The notes under the pieces: generated by a model
Told to the model about the DNA's origin: nothing
Seen by the model: the letters and a program-made list of their open reading frames with translations, nothing else
The model's database searches: none
DNA from: Actinomycetes bacterium
GTDB taxonomy: Bacteria > Actinomycetota > Thermoleophilia > Gaiellales > F1-60-MAGs149
DNA length: 64,000 nucleotides
Assembly: GCA_025360225.1 (NCBI GenBank)
Contig: JANYCN010000072.1
Span: forward strand, 1 to 64,000
Reading direction: 5' to 3'
Translations under genes and position numbers: made by a program
In this document: positions 54,141-59,335 of the stretch, piece by piece
How positions within the stretch are numbered: the first letter of the stretch is position 1
Layout of the letters: every line of letters begins with the position of its first letter

Positions 54141-54445
54141 TTGACCGCTGTTCGTCGCGGTGCTACCGTTCTCTAACGCGGAAAGGAGGTGGTCCAGACT
54201 TGCAAGGTCTTGTGGCTAGTGGAGGTACTCGCTCGTAGGGGCGAAACCCCTGAACCGACGGGGAATCGCAGAGCCAGCGTTGGCGCGGCCGCCGGTCGGC
54301 CAGCGCCCCTGCGAAATACCGCAGTGCCAGGAACGGGCGTCGCCGCACCACGTGTGCGCGGCGCCCGTTCTCGTCCTGCCGGCGTGGTCGACCGAACGCT
54401 CCCTTCTGTCCGGGCTGGTGCCAAGCCTGGATCCAATCCAGGCTT
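54141..54445 (+). ncRNA. Putative structured RNA/leader locus with promoter, anti-16S-tail element and multiple hairpins
   Basis: TTGACC-N17-TACCGT; GGAAAGGAGGTGGTCC; hairpins 54237-54251, 54277-54306, 54331-54370, 54423-54445. Confidence 0.45.
54423..54445. terminator. Hairpin AAGCCTGGAT-cca-ATCCAGGCTT
   Basis: Perfect 10-bp stem at the 3' end of the ArsC-like gene. Confidence 0.65.
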
Positions 54446-54797
54446 ACGGGGAGAGCAGGGCTCGGATCCGTTCCTTCGGCCGGCCGATGATTGCGCGGCC
54501 GTCGTGGACGACGATAGGGCGTTGCAGGAGCGCGGGCCGCGCGAGGAGCAGCTCGACGACCGGGCCAGGTGTGACGTAGTCTGCTTCGTCGAGCGCGAGC
54601 TTCTTGAACAGCGAGTCCTTGCGGACGAGGTCGGCGACCGGGTCCTCCAGGGCGGCGACGATCGCCTCGAGCACCTCGCGGGTCGGGCGGTCCTTCATGT
54701 AGTCGACGACGTCGAACTCGACGCCCAGCTCCTCAGCGATCGTGAGGGCGCTCACGGACGAGCCTCAATGACGGTTGTGAAAGATCGTTGTTGACAT
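54444..54797 (-). CDS. ArsC/Spx-like (COG1393) protein with in-frame TGA at the catalytic Cys position: candidate selenoprotein
   Basis: ATG 54797; MSTTIFHNRH[TGA]GSSVSALTIAEELGVEFDVVDYMKDRPTREVLEAIV...RPIVVHDGRAIIGRPKERI. Confidence 0.7.
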
Positions 54798-54883
54798 GGG
54801 ATCCATTCTAGCGACGATCCATTCGGTTCAATAGCCTTCGCGATTCGATCCTTGAGGATCGTTGTGGTGATACCGTTCGTTCG

Positions 54884-57800
54884 ATGACCGGCCTGTATGA
54901 CCCTCGCTTCGAGCACGACGCCTGTGGCCTCGGCGCGCTCGTGCAGCTTGACGGAGTGGCGTCGCACGGCCTCGTCGCGAGCGCGATCGAGGTGCTCGCG
55001 AACATGGACCACCGTGGCGCGAGCGGGGCCGACCCGGAGACCGGTGACGGTGCCGGGATCCTGACGCAGATCCCCGATGCGTTCCTGCGCGCCGCCGTCC
55101 GACGCGAGCTCGGTGTCGACCTGCCGGCCCCGGGCGACTACGCCGTCGGGATGGCGTTCCTGCCACGCGACCCGGCGATGCGTCTGCGTTGCGAGGAGCT
55201 GTTCGTCCGCATCTGCGTCGAGGAGGGGCACCGGGCGCTCGGCTGGCGCGACGTCCCCGTCGCCCCTGCAGCGATCGGAGCGCTCGCGCGCGATTCCGAG
55301 CCGGTCGTACGTCAGCTGCTCGTCGAGCGACGGGGCGGGGATGGCGAGACGTTTGGGCGCAAGCTCTACGTCATCCGCCGCCGCGTCGAGAAGGAGGCGG
55401 CCGCGAGCGGTGTCGCCATGAGCGCCTTCTCGGTCGTCTCGCTCTCCCACCGCACTGTCGTGTACAAGGGCCTCCTGCGCGCGACGCAGCTGTCCGCCTA
55501 CTACAGCGACCTGCGTGATCCGGCCTTCGCCTCGGCGATCGCGCTGGTGCACTCGCGCTTCTCGACGAACACGCTCGGCACGTGGGACCTCGCGCATCCG
55601 TTCAACTACCTGTGCCACAACGGCGAGATCAACACGGTGCGCGGCAACCACGCATGGCTCACCGCCCGCGAGCCGCAGCTGCGCTCGGAGCGCTTCGGTG
55701 GCGACCTCCAGAAGCTGTTCCCGATCGCCGATGAGCGGTGGTCTGACTCAGCGGTTCTTGATGCGGTGGTCGAGCTGCTCGTCCACGGCGGTCGCTCCCT
55801 GCCGCACGCGCTCGCGATGCTCGTGCCACCGGCCTGGACCGACCCGTCCCTCGACCTGCCGGACGCCGTGCGCGCGTTCCACGAGTACCACGCGTCACTG
55901 ACCGAGCCGTGGGACGGGCCGGCGGCGCTGCTGGCAACGGACGGCGTGCGCGTCTGCGCGATGCTCGACCGCAACGGGCTGCGACCGGGCCGCTTCGTGC
56001 GCACCAGGGGCGGCCTCGTCGTCGTCGCATCCGAGGCCGGCGTGCTCGACCTGCCAGCCGCAGAGATCGTCGAGGCCGGCCGGCTCGAGCCTGGTCGGAT
56101 GCTCGTGCTCGACACCGAGTCGGCTCGTGTGATCCGCGACGACGAGGTGAAGCGCGTCCTCGCGCGTCGCCAGCCCTACCGCCAGTGGCTCGACGCGGAG
56201 AAGCTGTTCCTTGACGATCAGCGACCACGCACGGTTGAACCGATCGCTCCGGACGAGCTGGTACGGCTCCAACGCGCGTTCTCCTACACGCGCGAGGACC
56301 TGCGGATGGTGATCGCGCCGATGGCTCGCGACGGCGTCGAGGCGACCGGCTCGATGGGCGACGACGCACCGCTCGCAGCGCTCTCCGAGCGCCCGAAGCT
56401 GCTGTCGGCGTACTTCAAGCAGCACTTCGCCCAGGTCACCAACCCGCCGATCGACCCGCAGCGGGAGGCGCTCGTGATGAGCCTTCGCACGACGGTCGGC
56501 GCGATCGGCAACCTCCTCGACGAGACGCCGGAGCACTGCCGACGCGTCGCGATGGCTGGGCCGATCCTGCAGTCCGGCGAGCTCGCAAAGCTCCGTCACC
56601 TCGACAGCCGGTTTCGCACCGAGACGCTCTCGACGCTCTATCCGATCGCCGAGGGGGCGGCGGGGATCGAGCACGCCGTCGACGCGCTGTGCCGCGATGC
56701 CTCGCGCCTCGTGTGGGACGGCACCGCGATTATCGTGCTGTCAGACCGCGGCGTGAACGCCGAGCTGGCGCCGATCTCGCCGCTCCTCGCCACCGCCGCC
56801 GTGCACAGCCACCTCGTCCGCGAGGGAGCCCGCACGATGTGCGGCCTCGTCGTCGAGTCGGGCGAGCCGCGCGAGGCGATGCACTTCGCGCTGCTGATCG
56901 GCTACGGCGCCGCGGCGGTCAACCCGTACCTCGCGCTCGAGTCGCTGCGGGCGCTGCACGCCGATGGCGAGCTCGGCGAGCTGACGCTCGGCGAGGCGCG
57001 CGAGCGCTACGTCAAAGCAGTCGGCAAGGCGCTGTTGAAGGTCTGCTCGAAGATGGGGATCTCGACGATCCAGAGCTACCGCGGCGCGCAGATCTTCGAG
57101 GCGATCGGTCTCGGTCGCAGGCTCGTCGACCGGTACTTCACCGGCACCGTCTCCCGGGTTGGCGGCCTCGAGATCGGCGACCTGCACGATGAGATCGCCG
57201 AGCGCCACCTCGCCGCGTTCGGTCAGCCCGACGCGCCAGAGCTCGACGGCGGTGGCGAGCTCCAGTTCCGCCAGGACGGCGAGCACCACGCCTGGAACCC
57301 CACCTCGATCGTCGCGCTGCAACGCGCCGTCCGGGATCGCTCCGCGCCGTCCTTCGCAGAGTTCGCCGGCTCGATCGACCGCTCGAACCGGCTGCAGACG
57401 CTGCGCGGGCTGCTCGAGCTCGTTCCGGCCGCGGAGCCGATCGCGCTCGAGGAGGTCGAGGGTTCTGACACGATCGTGCGGCGGTTCGCTACGGGCGCGA
57501 TGAGCCTCGGCTCGATCTCCCCGGAGACGCACGAGACGCTGGCGATCGCGATGAACCGCCTCGGCGGGCGCTCGAACACCGGTGAGGGTGGCGAGGATCC
57601 GGCGCGTTCGGTGGCGGACGCCAACGGTGACCTTCGCCGCTCGGCGATCAAGCAGGTGGCGAGCGCGCGTTTTGGCGTGACGACGCCGTACCTCGTCGAT
57701 GCCGACCAGCTGCAGATCAAGGTCGCACAGGGCGCGAAGCCGGGGGAGGGTGGGCAGCTGCCGGGCTACAAGGTCGACGCGCACATCGCCTGGCTCCGTC

Positions 57801-59335
57801 ACTCGACTCCGGGGGTGACGCTGATCTCGCCGCCGCCGCACCACGACATCTACTCGATCGAGGATCTCGCGCAGCTGATCCACGACCTGAAGTCGGTGAA
57901 CCCGGCGGCGGAGATCTCCGTCAAGCTCGTCGCCGAGGCCGGCGTTGGCACGATCGCCGCCGGTGTCGTCAAGGCAAAGGCCGAGCACGTCGTGATCGCC
58001 GGCCACGATGGCGGAACGGGCGCTTCGCCGATCTCCTCGCTCAAGCACGCCGGGTTGCCATGGGAGCTCGGGCTGGCGGAGGCACAGCAGGTGCTGGTGC
58101 GAAACGGCCTGCGGTCGCGCGTCCGGCTGCAGGTTGACGGCGGGCTGCGCACTGGACGTGACGTCGTCATCGGCGCGCTGCTTGGCGCCGAGGAGTTCGC
58201 CTTCTCGACCGCGCCGCTCGTCGCCCTCGGGTGCGTGATGATGCGCGTCTGCCATCTGAACACGTGCCCGGTCGGGATCGCGACGCAGGATCCCGAGCTC
58301 CGTCGACGCTTCGCCGGCACCCCCGAGCAGGTCGTGCGCTACATGCTGTTCGTCGCCGAGCAGGTGCGCGAGCTGATGGCGCTCGTCGGGATCCGTCGCT
58401 TCGACGACCTCGTCGGGCGAGCCGACCTGTTGCGGCCCGCCGCGACCGATCGCTGGCCGTGGTTGCATAGCATCGACCTGGCGCCGTTGCTCGAGCGCGT
58501 GCCGGGCGAGCAGCGACGCGGCGAGGGGCAGGATCACGGACTGGATGACGTCATCGACCGTCGCTGGATCGCCGCGCTCGATGCTGCTGCCCTTGACGGC
58601 CCGGTCGTGATCGTTGACCGCGTCACGAACGTCGACCGCAGCGTCGGCGCGTTGCTCGCCGGCCACGTCCAACGCACCCGGCCTGGTGCCGCGATCGAGC
58701 TGCACCTGACCGGCACGGGCGGGCAGAGCCTCGGCGCTTTCGCCGTCGGCGGGATGGCGATCGACCTCGTCGGCGTCGCCAATGACTACCTAGGCAAGGG
58801 CCTGTCGGGTGGTCGGATCGTCGTGCGGCCGCCCGCCGACGCCGGGTACGTGCCGGAGGACAACGTCATCGTCGGCAACGTCGCGCTCTACGGCGCCACC
58901 GGCGGTGAGGCGTTCCTGCGCGGGCGCGCCGGTGAGCGTTTCTGCGTGCGCAACTCGGGCGCTTCCGCCGTCGTCGAGGGGATCGGCGACCACGGCCTCG
59001 AGTACATGACGGGCGGCGTCGTCGTGATCTGCGGCGAGACGGGTCGAAACCTCGCCGCGGGGATGTCCGGCGGCGTCGCGTACGTGCTCGACAGCGGCCG
59101 GCCGATCGGCGAGCGGCTGAACCCCGAGATGGTGACGGTCGAGGAGCTCGTCGAGGACGATCTCGCCCTTCTCGGCGCGTTGCTCGAGCGACACGTTGAG
59201 CTGACCGCCAGCACGGTTGCGGCAGGCCTGCTCGCTGACCGCGCGGCGCTGCCGGACCGGTTCCTGAAGCTGATGCCAAACGACCTGCGTCGGGTGCTCG
59301 ATGCGATCGCCGAGCATGCCGAGGTGGCGTCATGA
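54884..59335 (+). CDS. gltB: Glutamate synthase large subunit
   Basis: 1483 aa; HDACGLGALVQLDG...GHDGGTGASPISSLKHAGLPWELGLAEAQQVL. Confidence 0.96.
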   Translation: MTGLYDPRFEHDACGLGALVQLDGVASHGLVASAIEVLANMDHRGASGADPETGDGAGILTQIPDAFLRAAVRRELGVDLPAPGDYAVGMAFLPRDPAMRLRCEELFVRICVEEGHRALGWRDVPVAPAAIGALARDSEPVVRQLLVERRGGDGETFGRKLYVIRRRVEKEAAASGVAMSAFSVVSLSHRTVVYKGLLRATQLSAYYSDLRDPAFASAIALVHSRFSTNTLGTWDLAHPFNYLCHNGEINTVRGNHAWLTAREPQLRSERFGGDLQKLFPIADERWSDSAVLDAVVELLVHGGRSLPHALAMLVPPAWTDPSLDLPDAVRAFHEYHASLTEPWDGPAALLATDGVRVCAMLDRNGLRPGRFVRTRGGLVVVASEAGVLDLPAAEIVEAGRLEPGRMLVLDTESARVIRDDEVKRVLARRQPYRQWLDAEKLFLDDQRPRTVEPIAPDELVRLQRAFSYTREDLRMVIAPMARDGVEATGSMGDDAPLAALSERPKLLSAYFKQHFAQVTNPPIDPQREALVMSLRTTVGAIGNLLDETPEHCRRVAMAGPILQSGELAKLRHLDSRFRTETLSTLYPIAEGAAGIEHAVDALCRDASRLVWDGTAIIVLSDRGVNAELAPISPLLATAAVHSHLVREGARTMCGLVVESGEPREAMHFALLIGYGAAAVNPYLALESLRALHADGELGELTLGEARERYVKAVGKALLKVCSKMGISTIQSYRGAQIFEAIGLGRRLVDRYFTGTVSRVGGLEIGDLHDEIAERHLAAFGQPDAPELDGGGELQFRQDGEHHAWNPTSIVALQRAVRDRSAPSFAEFAGSIDRSNRLQTLRGLLELVPAAEPIALEEVEGSDTIVRRFATGAMSLGSISPETHETLAIAMNRLGGRSNTGEGGEDPARSVADANGDLRRSAIKQVASARFGVTTPYLVDADQLQIKVAQGAKPGEGGQLPGYKVDAHIAWLRHSTPGVTLISPPPHHDIYSIEDLAQLIHDLKSVNPAAEISVKLVAEAGVGTIAAGVVKAKAEHVVIAGHDGGTGASPISSLKHAGLPWELGLAEAQQVLVRNGLRSRVRLQVDGGLRTGRDVVIGALLGAEEFAFSTAPLVALGCVMMRVCHLNTCPVGIATQDPELRRRFAGTPEQVVRYMLFVAEQVRELMALVGIRRFDDLVGRADLLRPAATDRWPWLHSIDLAPLLERVPGEQRRGEGQDHGLDDVIDRRWIAALDAAALDGPVVIVDRVTNVDRSVGALLAGHVQRTRPGAAIELHLTGTGGQSLGAFAVGGMAIDLVGVANDYLGKGLSGGRIVVRPPADAGYVPEDNVIVGNVALYGATGGEAFLRGRAGERFCVRNSGASAVVEGIGDHGLEYMTGGVVVICGETGRNLAAGMSGGVAYVLDSGRPIGERLNPEMVTVEELVEDDLALLGALLERHVELTASTVAAGLLADRAALPDRFLKLMPNDLRRVLDAIAEHAEVAS

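Follow-up and report, generated by a model that had tools for sequence, protein, structure and literature searches.

Sec-containing arsenate reductases with a UxxS active site were described by Zhang, Fomenko & Gladyshev in 2005 from 14 Sargasso Sea sequences, together with a SECIS element (PMC1088965). The family appeared again in 2008 as "ArsC 1, pfam03960, UxxS" with 77 GOS sequences (PMC2398784), and UxxS Sec arsenate reductases are listed in reviews (PMC9312934, PMC13188914); in the literature searched, we recognised no biochemistry of a Sec ArsC. The gene analysed here does not define a new family but is a member of this one, known since 2005. It shares the ArsC fold (COG1393/PF03960), Sec in the catalytic Cys column, the UxxS motif, a hairpin after the UGA and the occurrence of Cys homologs, and it fits the published definition (PMC1088965, PMC2398784) in being a PF03960 protein with Sec aligned to the catalytic Cys in the motif U11-G-S-S14. 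It differs in its host, an actinobacterial MAG with a same-order relative labelled Thermoleophilia, in relatives that were found mostly in Acidimicrobiia MAGs, and in a hairpin that lacks the family consensus.

Three other described groups are close enough to require comparison. With E. coli/R773 ArsC (PDB 1I9D, 1JZW; TIGR00014), the protein shares the fold (TM 0.84), catalytic residue 12 and the positions of Arg60/94/107, but it carries Sec rather than Cys, is only about 30% identical, scores under the TIGR00014 cut-off and belongs to a genome in which no ars operon, Acr3 or ArsB was detected. The arsenate reductase-like selenoprotein NF041106 is likewise Sec-bearing and ArsC-related (PMC13188914), but the third residue after Sec is Cys there (UxxC) and Ser here (UxxS), and NF041106 gave no match to our protein at E<=1e-6. 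Spx and YffB share the fold, but their sequence scores are weaker and our protein has no CxxC/UxxC switch.

The window, by which we mean the whole 64,000-nucleotide stretch of DNA that was analysed, is contig C4 of a 3.24-Mb genome that is 97% complete. The features that bear on the argument are as follows.

54444..54797, minus strand: Sec-containing ArsC-family gene, 117 residues on translation, with Sec as residue 11, an ATG start and a TAA stop
54765..54767, minus strand: in-frame UGA, the putative Sec codon, at the position of the catalytic Cys (Cys12 in E. coli ArsC), within a U-G-S-S (UxxS) motif
54741..54756, minus strand: hairpin noted earlier, CGUGAG-[CGCC]-CUCACG, loop G at +16, -6.3 kcal/mol
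54731..54747, minus strand: candidate bSECIS in the family-conserved register, CCUCA-[CGAUCGC]-UGAGG, loop G at +24, -4.2 kcal/mol
54805..54810, minus strand: -10-like promoter element TAGAAT, 7 nt upstream of ATG 54797
54884..59335, plus strand: divergent neighbour, glutamate synthase large subunit (gltB), Pfam GATase_2 / Glu_synthase / GXGXG

Translation of the minus strand gives a frame that opens at ATG 54797, contains a single in-frame TGA at 54767-54765 and ends with TAA at 54446-54444 (MSTTIFHNRH, the TGA, GSSVSALTIAEELG...RPIVVHDGRAIIGRPKERIRALLSP and the stop), in agreement with the preliminary description of an ArsC frame that is intact apart from one TGA. When the TGA is taken as a residue, Pfam ArsC matches residues 6-113 (E=9e-13), and both the first strand and the active site are covered. 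The version produced by the ORF caller, beginning at GTG 54755, aligns to the same profile only from position 14, so the earlier remark that the caller starts past the TGA and loses the first strand and active site was correct. We consider it very unlikely that this 103-aa ORF is the real gene, even though it is the output of a standard ORF caller: the codons preceding the TGA are conserved, most homologs lack the GTG, a -10-like element precedes ATG 54797, and the predicted product would be without strand 1 and the active site.

The upstream sequence also bears on the start site. Of 80 family genes, 44 have TANNNT at a distance of 5-9 nt upstream of the start codon, versus 1.1% of background start codons, a contrast that is somewhat overstated because more than one candidate start was allowed per family gene, although the gap is far larger than that effect. 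As judged from these upstream elements, many family members, the window gene included, are probably expressed from leaderless mRNA, and ATG 54797 is favoured as the true start because TAGAAT sits 7 nt upstream of it, much as in the probably leaderless family genes. Family genes without TANNNT before the start (among L045-L124) mostly carry Shine-Dalgarno-like sequences.

The genome encodes the means to insert Sec. A single match to selA (391 bits) lies on contig C41, where it is adjoined by selB, whose start lies four bases before the selA end; selD (365 bits) is on C47, and a tRNA-Sec with anticodon UCA is on C52. The set that characterises a selenoprotein-producing bacterium, namely, SelA, SelB, SelD and tRNA-Sec(UCA), is thus encoded in full, which strengthens the original proposal of a candidate selenoprotein. 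The same genome holds a second selenoprotein gene, L125 (G000:C14:22376-23650), an FdhA-like molybdopterin oxidoreductase with an in-frame TGA in the context NNIDSCNRT-U-HAPSVVGL, which we take to be the formate-dehydrogenase Sec motif, and with GGTC at +19 to +22 after the TGA. An in-frame TGA that is read through might also reflect genome-wide reassignment of TGA to a standard amino acid. That probability is practically negligible, however, since TGA is the ordinary stop of selA, selB, gltB, an aldehyde dehydrogenase gene and most neighbours, so that the genetic code is standard; in addition, the genome has a dedicated tRNA-Sec, and TGA swaps specifically with Cys among homologs. In other genomes with a family gene, SelB was present in the TGA-bearing G015, G163 and G098 (each at least 90% complete) and in the Cys-bearing G139, and a SelB match was not found in the TGA-bearing MAGs G185 and G267, which are only 81-82% complete.

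The main evidence for Sec comes from homologs. Scanning a single genome for each species yielded 80 public loci, mostly from Acidimicrobiia MAGs and a few labelled Verrucomicrobiota, Pseudomonadota or Binatota, which together with the window gene formed an alignment of 81 genes (L106 included). One of the two scan patterns held Cys, so any bias worked against recovering TGA copies. At the column of the proposed Sec, which aligns with Cys12 in E. coli ArsC chains from the PDB and so lies where the preliminary description had placed it, 74 of the 81 genes have TGA and 7 have TGC/TGT. The nearest relative, G015 (same family), is 75% identical and has TGA at the same codon, as do the class relatives G185, G267, G163 and G098 at 53-59% identity; G139, from the genus of G098, has TGC. 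Across independent genomes, TGA occupies the identical codon down to about 50% identity, a recurrence in divergent homologs that is far beyond chance. Both flanks of the codon are conserved, including the IFHN motif before it, and this combination of a TGA kept or replaced by Cys with conservation on either side is the pattern that identifies bacterial selenoproteins. Downstream of the TGA, the comparison between the window and G015 gave a dN of 0.19 and a dS of 0.59; since dN is below dS, the frame past the TGA is under purifying selection.

These data also address the alternative of an ordinary Cys-type ArsC gene whose TGA arose by nonsense mutation or sequencing error, an explanation that could draw on the existence of Cys homologs and on the single substitution separating TGC or TGT from TGA. 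It is exceedingly improbable, since all 74 TGA copies would need to be errors, selection persists beyond the codon and the genome encodes the Sec pathway. Because independent, divergent genomes keep the TGA and dN is below dS after it, both a decayed gene and a sequencing error are excluded, as the preliminary description had anticipated for the former and had proposed to check for the latter. Pseudogene, error, code reassignment and short ORF were all rejected. Each refuting condition of the preliminary description that could be examined at sequence level was examined, and the selenoprotein proposal withstood them all. On these comparisons, the window gene is almost certainly a functional selenoprotein gene in which UGA 54767-54765 is read as Sec.

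A hairpin shortly 3' of the UGA with a G in a small apical loop, as required of a bSECIS element, is strongly evident in the family, whereas the window has two competing weak hairpins. In type A, found in 52 TGA genes, positions +17 to +34 relative to the UGA fold into a stem of 7 bp, typically CCUUGGC-GGUC-GCCGAGG; the stem is 99% paired, compared with 29-51% in slid registers, and shows partial covariation, with three pairs altered on both sides (U-A/G-C, C-G/U-A, G-C/A-U). Type B, found in 18 genes, has a stem of the GCAAUGC-CGUG(A/C)-GCAUUGC type at +11 to +29 and is 97% paired; overall, slid registers of Sec genes are 17-51% paired. In Cys genes, pairing in the type-A and type-B registers is 65% and 37%, and neither element is kept. 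Stems were significantly longer than in synonymous-codon shuffles in 53 of 74 TGA genes versus 0 of 7 Cys genes. The two types occur in sister clades (L045-L124), with loops GGUC at +24..+27 and CGUG[A/C] at +18..+22, respectively, and at the same protein columns they are accompanied by different residues (Ala-Val for type A versus Arg/Ser-Ile for type B). The Rfam SECIS_1 search had no match in this genome and likewise none in any control genome, so that it is uninformative.

The window gene, L045, L046 and L047 together make up a basal group that lacks both the type-A and the type-B consensus. The hairpin proposed in the preliminary description, at 54756-54741, is present, but it is absent from the nearest relative. 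When the window is recoded synonymously, 10% of the recodings contain a 6-bp stem with G in the loop, so that even the better of the two window hairpins is not significant by itself (p=0.10). The broader suggestion of a bSECIS downstream of the UGA holds for the family, in which such a hairpin exists, but the conserved register lies about 10 nt further on than the hairpin drawn. A candidate in that register, at 54747-54731, shares its position with the type-A element of 52 homologs and is weaker in the window; in G015, the same register holds CUCUGC-[AGAUC]-GCGGAG (-7.2 kcal/mol). The two window hairpins overlap and are mutually exclusive, and that at 54756-54741 is the more stable. Since the earlier hairpin reaches only p=0.10 and is missing from the closest relative, it is TGA conservation, rather than the window hairpin, that serves as evidence for Sec. 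Elsewhere in the basal group, a bulged hairpin, CUCUCAGC-AUC-GCUG(A)AGAG, is possible in L047, and neither L046 nor L047 has a clear consensus hairpin.

The relationship between Sec and Cys copies was examined in a tree of 87 rows, which has a short alignment and many unresolved forks. Five Cys genes (L076, L079, L089, L091, and L113) nest within the type-B Sec clade, a placement that suggests reversion from Sec to Cys. One of these is the G139 copy (L091), whose genome keeps SelB; because a Cys copy nested in a Sec clade coexists there with SelB, the change from Sec to Cys apparently took place in a genome able to decode Sec. The Binatota Cys homologs L096 and L109 fall outside the Sec clade and may be closely related to the ancestral Cys form. 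TGA copies in MAGs labelled Verrucomicrobiota (L062, L067, L074, and L080), Pseudomonadota (L090) and delta proteobacterium (L093) lie amid actinobacterial ones, consistent with either horizontal transfer or mis-binning. Taking hairpins and tree together, we think it reasonably likely that in this one family the coding region stayed conserved while the SECIS within it was redesigned one or more times, as GGUC at +24..+27, as CGUG[A/C] at +18..+22 in the sister clade and as a degenerate GAUC in the basal lineage of the window, dictating the residues encoded and vanishing upon the change from Sec to Cys, and that the lineage of the window, like many of its relatives, apparently uses leaderless mRNA. 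Such a two-design SECIS and its leaderless expression appear to be undescribed so far.

The preliminary description had likened the protein to ArsC, YffB and Spx; the ArsC assignment stands, and the protein is nearer to TIGR00014 (UxxS) than to YffB or Spx. Its best NCBIfam match is the TIGR00014 arsenate reductase model at 87.6 bits, below the cut-off of 106.05, which the relatives L016 (108.4 bits) and L089 (107.2 bits) pass. The Spx/YffB models score lower by more than 35 bits and fall well short of their own thresholds (TIGR01617, 51.6 versus 75.05; Spx, 37.3 versus 123), and the motif is UxxS, not CxxC. The AlphaFold model has a pLDDT of 93.8, with ArsC structures leading the sequence and fold matches in the PDB. 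In E. coli ArsC, Arg60, Arg94 and Arg107 serve arsenate reduction. Window residues Arg59, Arg93 and Arg106 align with them, so that the catalytic residue and all three arginines named for TIGR00014 have counterparts here, and residues 11, 14, 59, 93 and 106 are invariant in 42 members. Because the catalytic column, the three Arg positions and the predicted fold are kept, ArsC-like chemistry is supported, by inference.

The physiological substrate is less certain, since Acr3 and ArsB, and with them an arsenic-resistance context, were not detected in searches of the genome and no ars operon surrounds the gene. Neighbourhood clustering of about 80 loci gave no ars operon partner and no consistent neighbour; neighbours are subclade specific, e.g., P-II, GcvT/GcvP and asparaginase genes. 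Such a pattern would also fit a real Sec protein with an ArsC fold whose substrate is not arsenate, i.e., a selenol redox enzyme acting on another oxyanion, a peroxide, a disulfide or a regulatory target. The score below the TIGR00014 cut-off and the presence of the regulator Spx among ArsC-fold relatives point in the same direction. Conversely, the three arginine positions and the UxxS active site are all invariant, TIGR00014 outscores the Spx models, some close members pass its cut-off, and arsenite could leave the cell via other carriers or be methylated. We regard a nonarsenate substrate as a realistic possibility, at somewhat under an even chance, and lean slightly toward arsenate as the physiological substrate.

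For the selenoprotein reading of the gene, the following mechanism may be envisaged. SelB with Sec-tRNA(UCA) would recode UGA 54767-54765 as selenocysteine, guided by a hairpin located in the coding sequence shortly after the UGA (between +9 and +34), with one of the two candidates presumably being bound by SelB. The product would be a 117-residue thioredoxin-fold oxidoreductase of the ArsC type, in which Sec11 takes the place of the nucleophilic Cys of glutaredoxin-coupled arsenate reductase and Arg59, Arg93 and Arg106 are retained. As the most likely chemistry, we infer a nucleophilic attack of the Sec selenolate on arsenate or on a comparable oxyanion or oxidised substrate; a low-molecular-weight thiol, together with a glutaredoxin or mycoredoxin partner, may then resolve the adduct. 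Two glutaredoxin-like proteins encoded in the genome are possible partners.

In sum, what appears to be new here is the actinobacterial, Thermoleophilia-related lineage and the wide distribution in Acidimicrobiia; an incomplete literature search found no paper joining selenoproteins with Acidimicrobiia. Assembled actinobacterial genomes, in this case one with complete Sec machinery, thereby gain a selenoprotein family that had been known mostly as fragments in marine metagenomes. As material for study, the family offers dozens of Sec genes and several Cys counterparts, among them a Sec/Cys pair from one genus (G098/G139), along with two SECIS designs that differ in their spacing from the Sec codon. 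It also illustrates that standard gene callers shorten such genes at the cost of the active site. Collectively, these genomes make the use of selenium for arsenate reduction by mostly uncultured actinobacteria directly testable.
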